A DNA stretch of 64,000 bases from Poseidonibacter lekithochrous (GCF_018861145.1 NZ_JAHKQT010000041.1:1-64000), one strand, 5' to 3'; numbered from the stretch's first letter, positions 45,864 through 54,079 are shown. Program-made: numbers and translations. The notes: generated from the letters alone by a model not told the origin.

Positions 45864-45977
45864 TTAAAGTTTCTCTATTCTATTTTTTCTTTTTATTAAT
45901 TTTTTAGATGTTTTAGTAATAGTTTTAGCTGTAATTGCAGCTGTTAATAGTGTAGCTAATGGTAATAAAAATCCCAT
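45864..45977 (-). CDS. 37-residue membrane protein of the iron locus
   Basis: An unlisted small gene. The product begins MGFLLPLATLLTAAITAKTI and ends in a Lys/Arg-rich tail (KKLIKRKNRIEKL): one membrane helix with a positive cytoplasmic end. AAAGGA stands 5 bases before the ATG, and two Fur-box-like palindromes lie just upstream, so regulated expression is likely. It follows the ferrosome-like operon on the same strand and may be an extra small component. No family is recognised. Confidence 0.6.
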   Translation of the reverse strand: MGFLLPLATLLTAAITAKTITKTSKKLIKRKNRIEKL

Positions 45978-45990
45978 ATAAATCCTTTTT

Positions 45991-46017
45991 AATAATAATT
46001 ATCAATAATTTTATCAA
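45991..46017 (-). promoter_or_regulatory. Fur-box-like repeat before the 37-codon gene
   Basis: AATAATAATTATCAATAATT followed by TTATCAA contains overlapping ATTATC/GATAAT half-sites typical of Fur operators. It stands 14 bases before the start codon. Confidence 0.5.
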
Positions 46018-46036
46018 AAGTAAACTTATACAATAC

Positions 46037-46055
46037 TGATATTTATTATCATTAT
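46037..46055 (-). promoter_or_regulatory. Fur-box-like palindrome
   Basis: TGATATTTATTATCATTAT carries a good ATTATCATTA core. It overlaps the stop codon of the 82-codon gene and precedes the 37-codon gene by about 60 bases. Confidence 0.5.
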
Positions 46056-46300
46056 ATTGTTTTTATATCTATTTCCAACTCTTCTATATTTTCTTTACTA
46101 TTATTTACACTTTTTTTCTTTTTTGAATCATATAATAATGTATGCCATAATGTAAAACCACAAAAAGCAGCTCCGGCAATAACATGTGCTTTCTTAGAAG
46201 CTTTATTTTTCATAAACATTGAAGTCACTACTGTAACACCAAGAGTTGCTGTCATACCAATCTTTGCAGTTTCTCTTTGTAGTTCTTTATCAAATTTCAT
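46052..46300 (-). CDS. Small membrane protein of the ferrosome-like operon
   Basis: An 82-residue protein with two hydrophobic stretches, IGMTATLGVTVVTSMFM and AHVIAGAAFCGFTLWHTLL, and an acidic tail. The first is rich in small residues as in glycine-zipper helices. It is the last gene of the operon, 2 bases after the P-type ATPase. I recognise no named family. Confidence 0.7.
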   Translation of the reverse strand: MKFDKELQRETAKIGMTATLGVTVVTSMFMKNKASKKAHVIAGAAFCGFTLWHTLLYDSKKKKSVNNSKENIEELEIDIKTI

Positions 46301-46302
46301 AT

Positions 46303-48405
46303 TTACTTTACCCCTTTTATTGAGTTTAATAATAAGCCAATAGTTGTACCATTATGTAAAACTGCTGTTACAATAGGAGAAAAGAAACCAAAAGTAGCAC
46401 CTGCCAAAATTACAGAATTTATACCAACTGTTGCTTTAAAGTTATTATTAATTAATTGCATCGTACTATTTGCTAACTCTTTAGCTTCTACAACTGCTGC
46501 AATATCATCTTTTAATAAGGCAACATCAGCTGTAGCTTTTGCAATATCAGCACCCCTACTCATAGAAATTCCTACATGCGCAGATATTAATGCAGGAGCA
46601 TCATTTATTCCATCACCAATAAAGGCAACTTTTTTCCCTTCATCAATAAATTCTTTTACTATTTTTGCTTTGGCTGTAGGTAAAAGTTCTGCTCTTACTT
46701 CAGTTATACCTAATTCATCAGCTATCATTTTAGCTTTTTTCATAGTATCGCCTGTCAACATAACAATATTTTTTACACCTAATTGTCTTAATCTATTTAT
46801 TGATTCTTTTGCATTAGCTCTTAAATTATCAGCAAGTGTGATTACTCCTAATAACTTTCCATCAAAACCTACATATAGAAGTGTTTCTCCTTTACTTAAA
46901 GACTTATCTATCTTTTCTTTATGTATTGAGAAATCAATTTTTTCATCATCCTCCAAAAAGTGTCTACTTCCAATTATTACTTGTTTTCCATCTACTTCTG
47001 TTTTAACGCCATGAGCTACAATAAATTCAACTTCTTCATGATGCATATGTACAAAACCATTCTCCTTTGCAGCTTTTACAACTGCATCAGCAACGGGATG
47101 AAAGTAATGCTCTTCAGTTGATGCAGTAAGATTTAGTAATTGTTCTTTAGTCCAATCTTTATCATACGATTCAACTGAAATTACTTCTAATTCACCTTCT
47201 GTTAAAGTTCCTGTCTTATCAAAAATAAATGTATCCGCACTATATAAGGACTCAATTGCTTTTGCACCTTTTATCATAATACCTTGATGACCTGCTTTTG
47301 AAATTGTTGATTTAAAAGCTACGGGAGTTGCAAGTTTTAAAGCACAAGAGTAGTCAGCTTGTAGAATTGATGCTGTTCTTTCAAAATCCTTAGTAAAGAT
47401 ATAAGAGACTCCAGCTAAGCCTAAGGTTACAGGAACAAGTTTATCCGCAAGTTTTGTAGCTTTTAACTGCACAGAAGATTTTTCATTTAAAGAGTTTTCA
47501 ATATAATGTTTTATTCTTTGAGTTGCTGTATTAGAACCTACATATTCAGCCCAGATTTTTAATCTTCCATCTTCTACAATAGTTCCAGATATAACTCTAT
47601 TTCCTCTTTGTTTTATAACAGGTTCAGCTTCCCCTGTCATTGAAACTTCATTTACACTAGCACTTCCATCAATAACATGCCCATCAACAGGTACAGTATT
47701 ACCTGTTGCTACTATTACAATATCACCTATTTTAATATCAATACTTTTTATTAAAACTTCTGTAATTTTTCCATCAACTTCTTTTTCAATCCATGCTTCT
47801 TCAACATTTGGTTTTGATAATTCTTTTAATAAATCATCACTTTTATGAACTGTAGTTTCCTCAATATATTCACCAAGTTCAAGCATAGCATTTGTTGAGT
47901 TTGCAGCTAAATAATCTTTTCTATAAATAGATATACCAACAGCAGCACTTTCTAAAACTTTTGATGTTAAGCCTTCAGAAAAAAGTTCCTTCGATCCATC
48001 AATTAACATAGGAAAAGCGGCAGCTGTTGTAATACCAGCTTTTAGCATATCATTTTGAATAAATCGCTCTCCTACTAATGCAGAACTAGCTCTTATAATA
48101 CCTTTGGTACTAGGTTCTTCATCACTAACACAAGAAACACAAACCGCAGCATCTTCACAAGAACTTAATAGTTCTTCTATATCTAAAGTTGATAATTTAT
48201 TCTCTATCTCATCACATGTAGATATATTATCAAAATGAAAAATAATACTATTTGCTTTTTTATTTACTCGTACAGAAGTTACACCTTCAAGTTTTTCTAA
48301 ATTAGTTCTTAAAATATTTTCATCAAGATATTTATCTTTTAATAAGGAAAATTTATATCTAGCTCTATTTGGTGTACTATGTACTTTTATAAATTGATTG
48401 TGCAT
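46303..48405 (-). CDS. fezB: P1B-6-type metal ATPase, FezB-like
   Basis: A heavy-metal P-type ATPase of 700 residues. The N-terminus has TPNRARYKF (residues 11-19) in an HMA_2-like domain, a CVSC pair near 89-92, the actuator loop MTGEAEP (256-262), the phosphorylated Asp in DKTGTLTEG (396), the nucleotide-binding EEHYFHPVADA and GDGINDAPA. The transport motif in the membrane helix is SCALKLATP (353), not CPC; SCA defines the P1B-6 group, to which FezB of ferrosomes belongs. It probably moves iron into a membrane compartment. The assignment to fezB is by motif and context only. Confidence 0.75.
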   Translation of the reverse strand: MHNQFIKVHSTPNRARYKFSLLKDKYLDENILRTNLEKLEGVTSVRVNKKANSIIFHFDNISTCDEIENKLSTLDIEELLSSCEDAAVCVSCVSDEEPSTKGIIRASSALVGERFIQNDMLKAGITTAAAFPMLIDGSKELFSEGLTSKVLESAAVGISIYRKDYLAANSTNAMLELGEYIEETTVHKSDDLLKELSKPNVEEAWIEKEVDGKITEVLIKSIDIKIGDIVIVATGNTVPVDGHVIDGSASVNEVSMTGEAEPVIKQRGNRVISGTIVEDGRLKIWAEYVGSNTATQRIKHYIENSLNEKSSVQLKATKLADKLVPVTLGLAGVSYIFTKDFERTASILQADYSCALKLATPVAFKSTISKAGHQGIMIKGAKAIESLYSADTFIFDKTGTLTEGELEVISVESYDKDWTKEQLLNLTASTEEHYFHPVADAVVKAAKENGFVHMHHEEVEFIVAHGVKTEVDGKQVIIGSRHFLEDDEKIDFSIHKEKIDKSLSKGETLLYVGFDGKLLGVITLADNLRANAKESINRLRQLGVKNIVMLTGDTMKKAKMIADELGITEVRAELLPTAKAKIVKEFIDEGKKVAFIGDGINDAPALISAHVGISMSRGADIAKATADVALLKDDIAAVVEAKELANSTMQLINNNFKATVGINSVILAGATFGFFSPIVTAVLHNGTTIGLLLNSIKGVK

Positions 48406-48410
48406 AAATA

Positions 48411-48755
48411 CTATTCTTGATTTGCTTCCGCAGCAGCTTTAGCATCTTCAAATCTCTCTTTTATTTCTTCCATTCCAGCTTGAAATAATTCACTTCCTTT
48501 AGAAGCTGCTTTCATTAAAGATTCTTGAGTACCTTTATTTGTTAAAAGAAATGTAACAGCTGCACCTATTAGTGCACCTTTGATAAAATCTCCATTATTG
48601 AACCCTGATTGATTTTCTTGAACTAGTGGTCCTGTTTGATTTATATTCATTTCTTGATTTATATAAGGATTTTGGTTTTGATTCATATTTTGATTACTTT
48701 GATTTCTAGTATTTTCAATGTTTGTATCATAGTTTAAATTATTGTTATTATTCAT
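48411..48755 (-). CDS. Asn/Gln-rich glycine-zipper membrane protein
   Basis: The first 60 of 114 residues are a low-complexity stretch of Asn and Gln (NQNMNQNQNPYINQEMNINQ). One short membrane helix with a glycine zipper follows, FIKGALIGAAVTFLLT, then a YtxH-like amphipathic helix. It overlaps the preceding gene by one base and lies 5 bases before the ATPase gene. Such proteins may shape or line the organelle membrane; this is inference. Confidence 0.7.
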   Translation of the reverse strand: MNNNNNLNYDTNIENTRNQSNQNMNQNQNPYINQEMNINQTGPLVQENQSGFNNGDFIKGALIGAAVTFLLTNKGTQESLMKAASKGSELFQAGMEEIKERFEDAKAAAEANQE

Positions 48756-49120
48756 TATTCACCTTCACTAATTAAATCATTATTTGATTCAGAAATAAAC
48801 TCATCTTTTTCTTCAAGTTTATTGTCAATAAGCTCTAAAGCATAAATTCCAGCCATACCAATTGAAGCTGCTGTTAGAGCTTTGAAAAGACCACCTTTTT
48901 GTCCAATATAATTTGCAGTTGCAATTGCAGAACCTGTTGCTATTGCTCCTTGAGATGTTCTTTTTACTGTATCTTTTATTGCATCATTTGGAGAAATTTT
49001 TCTTTCTTGTAATTTTTTATAATTAATCGTACCAGAAACAATAGCAGAGGCTACTGCTCCACTTACAACATGTCCTAGTACGTTTCTAGGTGCACCTGTA
49101 TTAATTAAGGGTTGATTCAT
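48755..49120 (-). CDS. Small hydrophobic protein with two Gly/Ala-rich helices
   Basis: Starting at the ATG at 49120 (MNQPLINTGAPRN) the product has 121 residues. An alternative longer reading from 49189 would overlap the previous gene by 73 bases and add only a Lys/Arg run. AGGTAGAAGA precedes 49120, and the start makes an ATGA overlap with the upstream stop. Helices HVVSGAVASAIVSGTI and GLFKALTAASIGMAGIYALEL are rich in small residues. The tail is acidic. No family is recognised. Confidence 0.72.
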   Translation of the reverse strand: MNQPLINTGAPRNVLGHVVSGAVASAIVSGTINYKKLQERKISPNDAIKDTVKRTSQGAIATGSAIATANYIGQKGGLFKALTAASIGMAGIYALELIDNKLEEKDEFISESNNDLISEGE

Positions 49121-49377
49121 TCTTCTACCTTTTTTATTTTTTCTTGTTTTTCTTCTAGCGCTGCTTTTTCTTTTTTCTCTTTTATACATTCTGCTGTTGC
49201 ATTTATTGTTTGTTTAACCTCATCAACAGTTTCTTTCCCTTTTTCTAAAGAATTATTTGCTACATCTTTTGATTTATTCAAAAAACTTCCTGCAACTTTT
49301 TTTAATTTATCAGACTTATTATAAGCAACTATTGCTCCTGCACCTACTGCTAATCCTAATATAAATGGTAATGCCAT
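49117..49377 (-). CDS. YtxH-like small membrane protein
   Basis: An 86-residue protein: an N-terminal helix LPFILGLAVGAGAIVAYN with a GxxxG pattern, then a long charged amphipathic helix (AAAA-free coiled coil from about 25 to 86). This resembles YtxH-type proteins, and the layout also recalls PacL1, a small partner of the mycobacterial metal ATPase CtpC. It lies between the ferritin-like gene and the 121-codon gene. Confidence 0.72.
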   Translation of the reverse strand: MALPFILGLAVGAGAIVAYNKSDKLKKVAGSFLNKSKDVANNSLEKGKETVDEVKQTINATAECIKEKKEKAALEEKQEKIKKVEE

Positions 49378-49380
49378 AAC

Positions 49381-50055
49381 TTACTCCTTATTTTCTTTGT
49401 TTAAGTAACTATTTAAAAGTGCAACAGATGTACTTCCTAAAGCTCCTCCACTAATCATCGAAATATTTAACTTTGAAAAAAGTTCAGTTAATTTATTTTG
49501 ATCTACATTTCCAGTCATTAAATCATCAAATAAACCTTGATATTCACCAAGTTTTTGCATTAAATCTTCTTGATTAATTCCTTGAGTATTTGATGCAGTA
49601 TAATAATTAATTACACAAGATCTAAAGGTTGGTAAATGATTATTAAAAGAAGCTGCTTGAAGTCTAAATAAAACATCTCTAATATCATCCTCTTTTGTAT
49701 GTAATAAAAGATTATCATACATTGCAATATTTCTAATTTCTGCTGCAACACCTACTTCACAACATTCAACATATGAATTTGGTACTTCAATCTTAGAAGC
49801 CCAATTATTAATTGGTACTTCAACTCCGTATTTTTCTAAAAGTGGAATTAAAGCACTATAATGTCTTGATTCTGCTGCTTTTATATTTACAAAAGGCTGA
49901 ATAAATCCAAATTTTTCTATAACTTTTGTATAAGTTTCATAAGCTTTAAATTCATCATATACTGCAATTCTAAGAACTTGTTCAATTTGTGTTTGTTCGC
50001 TATTTATATCTACTCTTTGAGATAAAAGTAATTGTTCATCAAAATTCTCTTCCAA
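49381..50055 (-). CDS. Ferritin-like (DUF2202-type) protein with hydrophobic tail
   Basis: Residues 20-165 form a four-helix bundle resembling ferritin-like DUF2202: AVYDEFKAYETYTKVIEKFG, KAAESRHYSALIPLLEKYG, VAAEIRNIAMYDNLL and SFNNHLPTFRSC supply the expected Glu and His ligands (ExxH as ESRH). Unusually, the C-terminus ends in a Gly/Ser/Ala-rich hydrophobic stretch, ISMISGGALGSTSVALLN, that may anchor it to the membrane. It could oxidise or deliver iron for the ATPase encoded downstream. Confidence 0.75.
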   Translation of the reverse strand: MEENFDEQLLLSQRVDINSEQTQIEQVLRIAVYDEFKAYETYTKVIEKFGFIQPFVNIKAAESRHYSALIPLLEKYGVEVPINNWASKIEVPNSYVECCEVGVAAEIRNIAMYDNLLLHTKEDDIRDVLFRLQAASFNNHLPTFRSCVINYYTASNTQGINQEDLMQKLGEYQGLFDDLMTGNVDQNKLTELFSKLNISMISGGALGSTSVALLNSYLNKENKE

Positions 50056-50370
50056 TTAAACTACCTCCTTCGCTAATTTATTTATTAACTGTGTTAATTC
50101 ATCTAAGTTTTCATTTTTTACTAAATCTTCCCAAAGTTTTGGAGCAAAAATATTATGATCATAAAGAATAGTAACTGAGCCTATAATCTTTTTAATTTTT
50201 ATATCTTTTATTCCATTTATTCTTGTAGGTAAACTTTCAATATCATTTATTGTTATATTGCCACTTTCTTCTTTTATTTTAGGACTTACTCTAACTCTTA
50301 GTCGTCCAGGAGTGTGGGCAATAATTGAAAAATATTTAGCAATTTTTATAATATCTTCTGTATTTATCAA
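50056..50370 (-). CDS. Small HMA_2-like protein (possible FezC-type)
   Basis: The first gene of the operon encodes 104 residues with an HMA-like alpha/beta fold. Its IAHTPGRLRVRVSPK (residues 18-32) is an Arg-rich counterpart of the TPNRARYKF segment of the ATPase, replacing the Cys pair of copper-binding HMA domains. Residues 37-75 (INDIESLPTRINGIKDIKI) follow the HMA pattern. A metal or lipid-interaction role is possible. It starts at 50370 behind GAAAGGA, with a Fur-like box about 60 bases upstream. Confidence 0.7.
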   Translation of the reverse strand: MINTEDIIKIAKYFSIIAHTPGRLRVRVSPKIKEESGNITINDIESLPTRINGIKDIKIKKIIGSVTILYDHNIFAPKLWEDLVKNENLDELTQLINKLAKEVV

Positions 50371-50430
50371 AGTCTTCCTTTCATCATTCTATTTTCTCTT
50401 TTTCAATCTTAAGTAAGACTTATTATAAAG

Positions 50431-50446
50431 TCATACTCATTATCAA
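50431..50446 (-). promoter_or_regulatory. Fur-box-like site of the ferrosome-like operon
   Basis: TCATACTCATTATCAA, on the coding strand TTGATAATGAGTATGA, matches the GATAATGAT half of the Fur consensus and shares GATAATGAGTAT with the strong box at 51045. It lies between the regulator stop and the first gene of the operon. Confidence 0.6.
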
Positions 50447-50453
50447 AAAGCAA

Positions 50454-50900
50454 TTATTGACAATCTTCACATATCCCATAAATCGTCATAACATGGTCTT
50501 TTAAATCAAAATTATTATCAGAAGCTACTTTTAGTTGTTGTTCTTCAATAATTTCATCTGTAAACTCAATAATCTTGCTACAAGATGTACAAACTAAATG
50601 ATCATGATGTAAAGATAAATTTAATTCATATCTTTTTATTCCATCACCTACATCCAATGACTCTACAATATTAAGTTCTTCAAAAAACTTCATTGATCTA
50701 TAAACTGTAGCAATTCCAATATCTATTTTATATTTAACTTTTACATCATTTGCAATTTGCTCAACGCTCAAATGCTCTTCGGCAAAATATAATATCTTTA
50801 AAATATAATCCTTTTGTATCGAATTCTTTAAGCCTGATTTTGAAACATGTTTTTTAAAGTTTTCTAAAAAAGCATTAAAATCTTTTTTATAATTATTCAT
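50454..50900 (-). CDS. fur: Fur-family metalloregulator
   Basis: A 148-residue repressor. The winged helix has VKYKIDIGIATVYRSMKFFEELNIVE, and the metal sites are HHDHLVCTSCSKIIEF and the C-terminal YGICEDCQ, giving two CxxC pairs for structural zinc. Fur-box-like sites at its own promoter and at neighbouring operons suggest it senses iron; PerR or Zur cannot be excluded by eye, nor can a second Fur elsewhere in the genome. It is translationally coupled to a 44-codon gene (TAATG). Confidence 0.85.
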   Translation of the reverse strand: MNNYKKDFNAFLENFKKHVSKSGLKNSIQKDYILKILYFAEEHLSVEQIANDVKVKYKIDIGIATVYRSMKFFEELNIVESLDVGDGIKRYELNLSLHHDHLVCTSCSKIIEFTDEIIEEQQLKVASDNNFDLKDHVMTIYGICEDCQ

Positions 50901-51034
50901 TAATTAAATCCTTTTACTAAAATTAATAAAATACCTATAGTTAAAGTAAGTGTGTAAATCTTCCATAAATTATTATGTATTTTAATATTCCGCTTATGCA
51001 AAAGAGATCTTTTTGCAATTTTGTTTTTTTTCAT
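50900..51034 (-). CDS. 44-residue membrane protein upstream of the Fur-family gene
   Basis: An unlisted small gene. The product is basic at the N-terminus (MKKNKIAKRSLLHKRNIKIH) and has one membrane helix (LWKIYTLTLTIGILLILV). AAGG is 6 bases before the ATG, and the stop TAA shares its last base with the ATG of the regulator gene, so it may serve in translational coupling. A strong Fur-type palindrome lies 10 bases upstream of its start. Confidence 0.65.
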   Translation of the reverse strand: MKKNKIAKRSLLHKRNIKIHNNLWKIYTLTLTIGILLILVKGFN

Positions 51035-51042
51035 TTTAAACC

Positions 51043-51067
51043 TTGATAATGAGTATCATTATGATAC
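51043..51067. promoter_or_regulatory. Strong Fur box
   Basis: GATAATGAGTATCATTATG (51045-51063) differs from the 19-base Fur consensus GATAATGATAATCATTATC at only three positions, and the match continues with a third half-site, ATGATAC. It lies between the divergent 44-codon gene and the plus-strand gene at 51172 and could control both. Confidence 0.75.
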
Positions 51068-51563: not shown

Positions 51564-52895
51564 CTACTTCTCTTTATAGTCAAACATTATTGTAAATTTT
51601 GCACCATGCTCATATTTATAAGTAAAAGTACCAAATAATTGAGTTCTTACAATAGTAGAGACAAGTCTTAATCCTAGTGTTTTTGTTTGATTTACATCAA
51701 CATCACTAGCTATGCCAAACCCATCATCATGAATAAGTAAAATGCAATTATTATCTAATTTTTTAAATTCTATTTTTAAATTCCCATTTTTATTTTTAAA
51801 AGCATATTTGTAAGCATTTGTAATACACTCCGTTATGATTAAACCACAAGGTAAGGCATATTCAATATCCATATTAACATCACTAATTAAAGTGTTTATT
51901 TTTATCTCTTTGTCTTTTCCATATGTATTATCTAAATCTTCAATAAGCTCTAAAATATATTTTTTTAAAGAGATAGAGTTTAAATCTTTTGATTCATATA
52001 ACTTTCTATGTAGTAATTCCATAGTAAAAACTCTTTCTTGAATATCAGTTAATGTATTTTTTGTATTTGAATCACTAATCTTTGATTTCTGAAGTTTTAT
52101 TAAATTTATAGTCATTGCAAGATTGTTTTTATTTCAACTTTCTGATCTAAGTCATTAATATTAACTTCAAGTGAATCTAGCATATTATCAAATGTTCTAG
52201 CAAGAATAGAAATATCATCCTCACCTTTGATTTTGCTTCTAAAATGAAGATTTCCTTCATTAACTTGTTTTGCAGTATTTGTTAATATATTAATACTTTT
52301 AAAAAGTTTTTTAAAAAGGAAAAAACCTAATAATACAGCTATTAGTATAGATAAGATAGCGGCTGGTAAAATTTTAAATATAGGAGAATAAAAATCTCTA
52401 TTAAAATCTCTTAAATATACTGTTGTCAAAAATAAAAGTTTTCTGTCTTCCATATCTCAAATAGATTTCACCCAAGTAAAAGCAGGATTTACAAAATCTT
52501 TAAGATTTTCTTTTGAATTTACTAAATGATATATAGGTTCTTTATCTGCTATTTCAATAATTTCTTTTGCGCTAAGAAGACCTGTTTGGGGATAGTTAGA
52601 ACTTGACATTTTACTCAAGCAATATTTATCGTTATATGCATTATCATTAATATTATATAAAGGTTTATTAGCAAATTTCTCATAATCTGAATTTACCCAG
52701 ATAAGATTTATTTTCCCTCTATGGTCTTTATTAGATAATTCAAAACTTTTTTGTAAATCATTTTTTATATCTTCTTCTAAATTTATATGTTTATTTTTAA
52801 ATACATTAGGTTTACATTCTATTACCACTGTTTCGTGGATATCATCTATATCTTTTGAATATAAAATGCTTGATAGTACTTCTGATACTTCATTG
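51564..52895 (-). pseudogene. Decayed Cache-HAMP histidine kinase (HisKA_2 type)
   Basis: Three consecutive reading frames are pieces of one kinase. The sensor piece ends FTWVKSI, an in-frame TGA (52457-52459), then DMEDRKLLFLTT, so a nonsense mutation divides sensor from HAMP. After the HAMP and LDQKVE the reading jumps to KNNLAMTINLIKLQ in another frame: the stretch that should hold the HHRVKNN phosphorylation box is deleted. The ATPase domain (HDDGFGIASD) remains. The 5' end is missing too, cut off at about 52895 where the antisense PepSY gene begins. The left boundary is the stop codon; the right boundary is my estimate. Confidence 0.8.
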
Positions 52896-54079
52896 TTAAG
52901 TAACTTTTTCAATGACTTACATATAAGAAGAAATATTCCTAAAATTGGACAATTATTAATGGGAATTGCATCAATTCTAATTATATTTTTAACTATAAGT
53001 GGAGTAATTTTATATTTAAATAAACATAAAAAAACAATACAGAGTTTAATTTTAAATGGCATAGAAATCTATCTTTACTTTTATTACCCTATATTATTGT
53101 TTTTTCATTAACAGGAGCAGTACTTGGTTTTATGTTATCTTCTGCTTCTGCATTTGCTTATGTTGCTACAAATACTGAAAGTTCAGAATTAAGACCACTT
53201 GTAGGACCTATTATTTTCCCTAGTGAAAGAATTCCTAAAAAAAGTACTGAGTTTAAAAACTTTCAAAACATAGACACTCTTATAGAAAAAGCAAAAATAA
53301 TCATGCCCCATCTTGAAGTTACAAATATAAAGCTTCTTCAATGGAATGATAAAAATGCACAAATAAAAATAGAGGGTTTTTTAAAAAACAATAGAATGCT
53401 AACAGGAAGAATTAATAGAGTTCATGTTCTTTTAAATCCTATTTCAGGAGAATTAATAGATAAAAAAGATCTAAGTAGTTCACACCTTGCAAATAAAACT
53501 TTATCTGCTTTTTACTTTTTTCATTTTATACCAGATGAAACTTTATTTGTAAGAATAATATACTTAATACTTTCTCTTGCTTTTATTGCATCTTTAGCAC
53601 TTGGTTTTCTTATAATAACTAATAAAAAAGCTATAAAAAATAAAGATAATAGAAACTATTTTAATTTCACTGGAAGGTTTTCTATTGCTATTATGTTTGG
53701 AATCATTCCATCATCAGCACTTATATTAGTTTTATATTGGGGAATACCTACTGAATTATTTCAAAGAACTATATGGATTAAAGGTATTTTTTACTCTTTT
53801 TGGGCCTTTACCTTACTTCTTAGCGTTTATTATGATGATATACTAGACATATTAAAAAGTCTTGCCTTATTTACATCTATATTTTTATTCTCTGCTGTAA
53901 TATCACATATTATGGCTACTAGTGTTTATATTGCAAAACTAATCAAAGCAGATTCTATTCATAGTGTTTTATATTTTGATTTAACCTTATTACTCTTAAG
54001 TATAGTTTTTTTCTTATTTTATAAATATTCACACAAAATTACATTTTTAACAAAATACTCAAGGAGATATCATGCTTAG
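52896..54079 (+). pseudogene. PepSY-type membrane protein, 5'-truncated and frameshifted
   Basis: The remaining sequence starts in mid-protein with SNFFNDLHIRRN and a helix IGQLLMGIASILIIFLTISG, which normally follow a first membrane helix and a PepSY domain; those and the start codon are gone. After NKHKK the frame shifts: adding one A to the A7 run at 53028-53034 would continue as KNNTEFNFKWHRNLSLLLLP, the conserved PepSY_TM sequence. The rest, with five more helices, is open to 54079. Relatives act in siderophore-iron reduction. The left boundary is estimated. Confidence 0.78.

Follow-up and report, generated by a model that had tools for sequence, protein, structure and literature searches.

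A ferrosome-like (fez) operon with an added ferritin-like gene in Poseidonibacter lekithochrous and other Campylobacterota

Operon organization and Fur-type operators

The window is the whole 64-kb stretch of DNA analyzed here (contig C11 of a 3.0-Mb genome), and gene calls and profile searches delimit a single operon on its minus strand, running from 51034 to 45864 (Table 1). In 5' to 3' order it codes for a 44-aa microprotein, a Fur-family regulator, a small HMA_2 protein, a ferritin-like protein, YtxH-like and MamC-like membrane proteins, an Asn/Gln-rich protein, a P1B ATPase, a FezC-like protein, and a 37-aa microprotein; the genes from HMA_2 through FezC overlap or are only a few bases apart. 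All of the minus-strand genes named in the initial annotation were recovered, but its count of four small Gly/Ala-rich membrane proteins was too low: such proteins are present, and there are six small hydrophobic proteins when the 37-aa and 44-aa microproteins are included. The start of the MamC-like gene, placed earlier at 49189, is corrected to 49120, because homologs begin there and the longer frame overlaps the preceding gene.

Table 1. Genes and candidate regulatory sites of the operon, with positions counted from the first base of the window
Feature	Position	Strand	Evidence or remark
Fur-box-like operator	51045-51063	.	precedes the 44-aa ORF and the fur-family gene
44-aa predicted membrane microprotein	50900-51034	-	stop overlaps the start codon of the fur-family gene
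Fur-family regulator	50454-50900	-	PF01475, E 2.6e-33
Possible further Fur site (GATAATGAGTATGACTTTA)	50426-50444	.	HMA_2 promoter region; 13/18, weak
Small HMA_2 protein, Arg-rich, H-x-P-G-R-L-R-V-R motif	50056-50370	-	PF19991, E 1.4e-6
DUF2202 ferritin-like protein, C-terminal Gly-zipper membrane segment	49381-50055	-	PF09968
Short membrane protein, N-terminal Gly-zipper segment (YtxH-like)	49117-49377	-	MALPFILGLAVGAGAIV
MamC-like membrane protein	48755-49120	-	NCBIfam MamC, E 8e-7
Asn/Gln-rich protein, one Gly-zipper membrane segment (KGALIGAA...LLTN)	48411-48755	-	hhalign, homologs
FezB-type P1B ATPase, HMA_2 N-terminus, SCA in TM4	46303-48405	-	TIGR01525, E 9e-147
FezC-like half-cytochrome (DUF4405-like)	46052-46300	-	DUF4405, E 0.018 (weak)
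Fur-box-like site	46038-46056	.	FezC-like gene on one side, 37-aa ORF on the other; differs from the 19-mer at 3 positions
37-aa membrane microprotein (MGFLLPLATLLTAAITAKT...)	45864-45977	-	conserved in relatives

The two microproteins recur in relatives. Short-query BLAST places the 44-aa protein, which contains a hydrophobic segment, upstream of fur in a further 14 Arcobacteraceae loci (best E 9e-12), and the 37-aa protein is kept in most Arcobacteraceae loci, either before or after FezC, and is fused to FezC in an Arcobacter plasmid. Elsewhere in the window, at 51564-53062, three neighbouring minus-strand ORFs (one with HisKA_2/HATPase, one with HAMP, and an N-terminal part without a match) resemble one broken sensor kinase gene.

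The initial annotation placed Fur-type operators and a Fur-family gene at the flanks of the operon, and both are found there. A scan of the whole 64 kb with the 19-base GATAATGATNATCATTATC, allowing up to 3 mismatches, returned two matches only, both at the operon edges, where 0.21 are expected and two are reached in 3 of 100 shuffles. The upstream box matches GATAATGATNATCATTATC at 16 of 18 positions, which none of 100 shuffles equals, and close relatives have a 14-16/18 box at about the same place upstream of fur. The candidate site in the HMA_2 promoter region is not significant alone (shuffling p about 0.13), and a GATAAT-like element 62-89 bases upstream of HMA_2 recurs in many relatives. 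The Fur-family protein is one of four paralogs in the genome and is not the best match to canonical Fur (122.7 bits to the NCBIfam Helicobacter-type Fur, under its cut-off of 200); its gene adjoins the operon in many relatives. The Fur boxes suggest that the operon is expressed under iron limitation.

Relationship to six-gene fez operons

The ATPase is of the P1B type, with an HMA_2 N-terminus that exceeds the Pfam cut-off, and its TM4 motif is QADYSCALKLATP (DYSCALKLATP), with SCA in place of CPC; DYSCALKL is present in the ATPase of every Campylobacterales locus read. In a careful tree of 51 ATPases, with Azospirillum and Shewanella operons standing in for the strains with experimentally proven FezB, the window ATPase falls in a 100/99 clade with those of Campylobacterota, Azospirillum (L114), Azoarcus, Dechloromonas, Comamonadaceae, Ectothiorhodospira, and Shewanella (L205), and a wider SCA clade that takes in Vibrio, Shewanella, Chromatiaceae, and Desulfarculaceae is likewise 100/99. 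The two other P1B ATPases of the host genome, both CPC-type, lie outside the clade of the window ATPase, and a quick tree of 77 ATPases agrees. Among the ATPases sampled, the window ATPase groups with those of six-gene operons and not with Cu, Zn, or Mn exporters, the grouping that the initial annotation had set against its own reading.

Two other ATPase arrangements were seen. A second P1B ATPase, about 30% identical and with TM4 MSCPCATVLAAS, is absent from the window and is the first operon gene in about 10 Campylobacterales loci (L062-L067, L070, L103, L105, and L113), raising the question of a role in iron release. Plasmid pORIO2 of Cereibacter azotoformans (L115) carries a divergent fez-like cluster with TM4 DYACPVKLTTP among genes for TonB receptors and FeoA.

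The six-gene operon was found in Shewanella (L205), Azospirillum (L114), and six Rhizobiales loci (L223-L228), in the order HMA_2 fused to a FezC-like tail, HMA_2, short Gly-zipper protein, MamC-like protein, Asn/Gln- or Gly-rich protein, and ATPase. In profile-profile comparisons with hhalign, all five small window proteins match their own six-gene counterparts best: HMA_2 (99.3%, E 3e-20), YtxH-like (86%, E 5e-6), MamC-like (96%, E 5e-9), Asn/Gln-rich (98.8%, E 7e-17), and FezC-like, which matches the FezC-like tail (96.7%, E 3.5e-10). There is also resemblance between the two Gly-zipper proteins (81% and 58%), which their similar short segments would lead one to expect. Matches of the window proteins to DUF4405, HMA_2, and MamC are singly weak, or near or below curated cut-offs, with the HMA_2 protein just below the Pfam cut-off for PF19991. 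G22, R23, R25, and R27 of the HMA_2 protein are invariant within the Arcobacteraceae, and the MALPFILGLAVGAGAIV segment of the YtxH-like protein has invariant G8 and G12. The Asn/Gln-rich protein, which the initial annotation had set outside the known fez genes, is matched by proteins of Vibrio, Shewanella, Azospirillum, and Rhizobiales operons; it is therefore a standard, core part of such operons, and its candidacy as a novel component is rejected.

FezC is a heme b cytochrome of the ferrosome, related to DUF4405 and modelled as a homodimer (PMC11334425). The window protein resembles it as a short membrane protein with DUF4405 similarity and two conserved histidines, H39 and H53, which are 14 residues apart and invariant in 66 of 66 homologs across phyla; it differs in that its own Pfam match is weak (homologs range from E 2.9e-5 to 0.004) and its heme binding is putative. 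Four loci (L063-L066) encode a fusion of the FezC-like protein with a SpoIIAA-like domain at its C terminus (PF11964, E 1.2e-19 in L064).

Ferrosomes are made from six fez genes in Rhodopseudomonas palustris CGA009 (PMC12016538), which, judging from their number, order, taxon, and FezC content, are probably the same six as those compared here. With the R. palustris (RPA2333-2338) and Shewanella putrefaciens operons, for which the Azospirillum, Rhizobiales, and Shewanella operons stood in for the genes of the proven strains, the window operon shares an SCA FezB-type ATPase with an HMA_2 N-terminus, the HMA_2, short Gly-zipper, MamC-like, Asn/Gln- or Gly-rich, and FezC-like half-cytochrome proteins, and the relative order from HMA_2 to the ATPase. 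It differs in having a DUF2202 ferritin-like gene after HMA_2, a FezC gene that is separate from its HMA_2 domain and located at the 3' end, and, in Arcobacteraceae, the 37-aa and 44-aa microproteins. S. putrefaciens, too, reportedly has six fez genes, and such operons are said to be sufficient in foreign hosts, both as described by Grant et al. in 2022.

Two other systems are more distant. The fez-like operons of Vibrio, Shewanella, and Enterobacterales (L116, L120-L153) share HMA_2, MamC-like, Asn/Gln-rich, and SCA ATPase genes, but carry a divergent HMA_2 gene and code for a large membrane protein, rich in Pro and Gln, that contains an EFWKGA segment; no ferritin-like gene was detected in them, and their ATPases form a separate clade. 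The MamC-like proteins of the window and of L116, L125, and L165 match magnetosome MamC, with profile similarity of E 9e-9 to 2e-6 in several fez-like operons, whereas the window protein, at 29 bits, is far under the NCBIfam equivalog cut-off of 100, and no magnetosome genes were seen; an evolutionary link between ferrosomes and magnetosomes is possible.

Fifty-nine loci, drawn from the family of the window and from further Campylobacterales families, were scored, and the same gene set, which the initial annotation had proposed to look for across Arcobacteraceae, is widespread among them. The HMA_2, ferritin-like, YtxH-like, MamC-like, Asn/Gln-rich, and ATPase genes follow one another in one direction in 57 loci, which is far beyond chance; the exceptions are L068, cut by a contig end, and L100, in which no ferritin-like gene is detectable. 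With five exceptions, FezC was detected downstream of the ATPase in the scored loci. An ATPase of the window's clade is present in 102 of 298 sampled Campylobacterota genomes, representing 21 of 59 genera, and such an ATPase is also found on Arcobacter plasmids. These plasmids are the nearest named relatives and, with the initial annotation, are the basis for placing the window in the Arcobacteraceae. The operon is also found in a Campylobacter genome.

Taken as a fez operon of the six-gene class, the locus is very probably correctly assigned. Both the ATPase clade and the gene-by-gene match favor the ferrosome-like locus of the initial annotation, from which we infer the organelle itself.

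The ferritin-like protein

The DUF2202 gene is absent from the six-gene set and inserted after HMA_2, and in this respect the locus is a distinct variant, as the initial annotation had supposed from the ferritin-like partner. The protein scores 27.6 bits against PF09968 (cut-off 22) and is modelled by AlphaFold as a four-helix bundle (pLDDT >90 in the bundle), for which the best PDB matches in Foldseek are MJ0754 structures (E 1.9e-4), one of them with Zn2+. It shares with MJ0754 (DUF2202, PDB 3q4n) the bundle and the aligned ExxH, E, and H positions, but the fez form carries a C-terminal extension with a Gly-zipper membrane segment at about residues 198-218. This segment is of low confidence in the AlphaFold model; its G203 and G207 are invariant, it is hydrophobic in 64 of 66 homologs, and it resembles the segments of the YtxH-like and Asn/Gln-rich proteins. 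The protein appears to be tied to the membrane; no signal sequence was seen in it, and anchoring by a C-tail would leave the ferritin domain in the cytosol. Descent of the C terminus from the EFWKGA protein of gamma- and alphaproteobacterial operons, suggested by a weak profile match in Cereibacter (E 3e-4), is not upheld: Chromatiales carry both genes, and shared Gly-zipper composition can explain the match.

The gene occupies the same operon position in Azoarcus, Dechloromonas, and Comamonadaceae and lies directly before the ATPase in Chromatiales, so that its range extends beyond Campylobacterota. In whole genomes most fez-type copies escape the Pfam DUF2202 model, which is therefore unusable for counting them. 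Among five free-standing plasmid DUF2202 proteins, three are only 139-141 aa long, too short for the C-terminal extension, and the other two are 185 and 206 aa. A free-standing DUF2202 gene on a Methylotuvimicrobium alcaliphilum plasmid (L230) is followed directly by feoB and a P-type ATPase gene, which is another link between DUF2202 and iron. Elsewhere, the host genome also encodes an ordinary ferritin and another, weaker member of the ferritin family.

Five putative metal ligands (E35, E62, H65, E106, and H140) are conserved in 38 or 39 of 39 Arcobacteraceae sequences, are aligned in MJ0754, and are kept in most betaproteobacterial copies and in Chromatiales and Methylocystaceae, which implies selection for metal binding in these groups. 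A complete canonical diiron site with two ExxH motifs, which defines ferritins and rubrerythrins and not DUF2202, was not found, there being no Glu three residues before H140 in helix 4. Nine Campylobacteraceae-like loci keep E35 and E106 but have K or R at E62, G or A at H65, and Y at H140, and Azoarcus Aa7 has lost four of the five ligands; catalysis is therefore not essential everywhere. The persistence of the gene, its position, and its membrane segment in these loci would fit a mainly structural protein, a membrane-bound scaffold or size determinant instead of an iron-oxidizing enzyme. For this one component such a role is less likely than not, as the near-invariance of the ligands in Arcobacteraceae and their retention in the other groups point to metal binding. 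That the domain binds iron at the ferrosome in Arcobacteraceae has a little under an even chance. Somewhat less likely than not is a fuller scheme that unites ferritin chemistry with a membrane-bound iron organelle in a single machine, in which an anchored subunit binds or oxidizes iron at the ferrosome membrane in one Campylobacterota branch and some proteobacteria, and in Campylobacteraceae has become a structural part through loss of the metal site.

Proposed function and implications

P1B ATPases generally export metal out of the cytosol, and Fe exporters of the PfeT/FrvA type are known. The locus could accordingly code for iron efflux at the plasma membrane, with the ATPase exporting excess Fe2+, the small and ferritin-like proteins serving as accessories, and no organelle. 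This is improbable, as the Fur boxes suggest expression in iron limitation, contrary to what an efflux pump needs, and the small membrane proteins as a set correspond to those of six-gene fez-type operons, for which ferrosome formation has been reported (PMC12016538). Handling of another metal (Cu, Zn, or Mn) is highly improbable: the best curated NCBIfam matches of the ATPase are generic heavy-metal and Cd/Cu ATPase models, but it has no CPC motif and its clade leaves out the CPC-type ATPases of the genome, the operon has Fur boxes and codes for both a Fur paralog and a ferritin-like partner, and related loci are accompanied by FeoA and TonB receptors in Cereibacter and by TonB receptors and a ChaN lipoprotein on an Arcobacter plasmid.

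The best explanation of the whole is a Fur-controlled ferrosome operon that belongs to the six-gene class and has a form shared across Campylobacterota; to this, together with the mechanism outlined below, we assign a probability of about 0.8. It is built on gene content, homology of the parts, phylogeny, conservation of ligands and histidines, and Fur boxes, and it proposes a vesicle, iron as the substrate, electron transfer, and a side and role for the ferritin-like domain. That the operon makes iron granules is probable.

In this ferrosome model, iron limitation would lift Fur-type repression, as the operators suggest, and the operon would be expressed. The YtxH-like, MamC-like, Asn/Gln-rich, and HMA_2 proteins would be inserted in the membrane or work at it, giving a vesicle its shape or budding it off, and into this vesicle the FezB-type ATPase would move Fe2+ from the cytosol. 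The FezC-like cytochrome b, probably dimeric and holding heme through two histidine pairs, may carry electrons across the vesicle membrane, so that iron is deposited as Fe3+ or released as Fe2+. The DUF2202 protein, anchored at the vesicle membrane by its C-terminal Gly-zipper, may bind Fe2+ at a diiron-like site and either supply iron to the pump or oxidize iron and remove peroxide beside it.

The six-gene kind of fez operon is known, and what appears to be new is the addition of a DUF2202 ferritin-like protein, apparently membrane-tied, to the gene set. Literature searches for ferrosomes with Campylobacter, ferrosomes with ferritin-like proteins, and DUF2202 found nothing relevant, in a search that excludes two Nature ferrosome papers, which limits the claim of novelty. 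Ferrosomes have been demonstrated in few species only, and a 2025 review asks which further bacteria have them (PMC12574912); about one-third of the sampled Campylobacterota genomes have the ATPase of this operon, and a Campylobacter genome carries the operon. The operon would join two modes of iron storage that are usually separate, membrane-bound stores and a ferritin-like protein. With every small gene matched to the six-gene class, it offers a parts list for the organelle, and the ferritin-like subunit, with natural versions that have and lack the full metal site, offers a handle on iron entry into the ferrosome.
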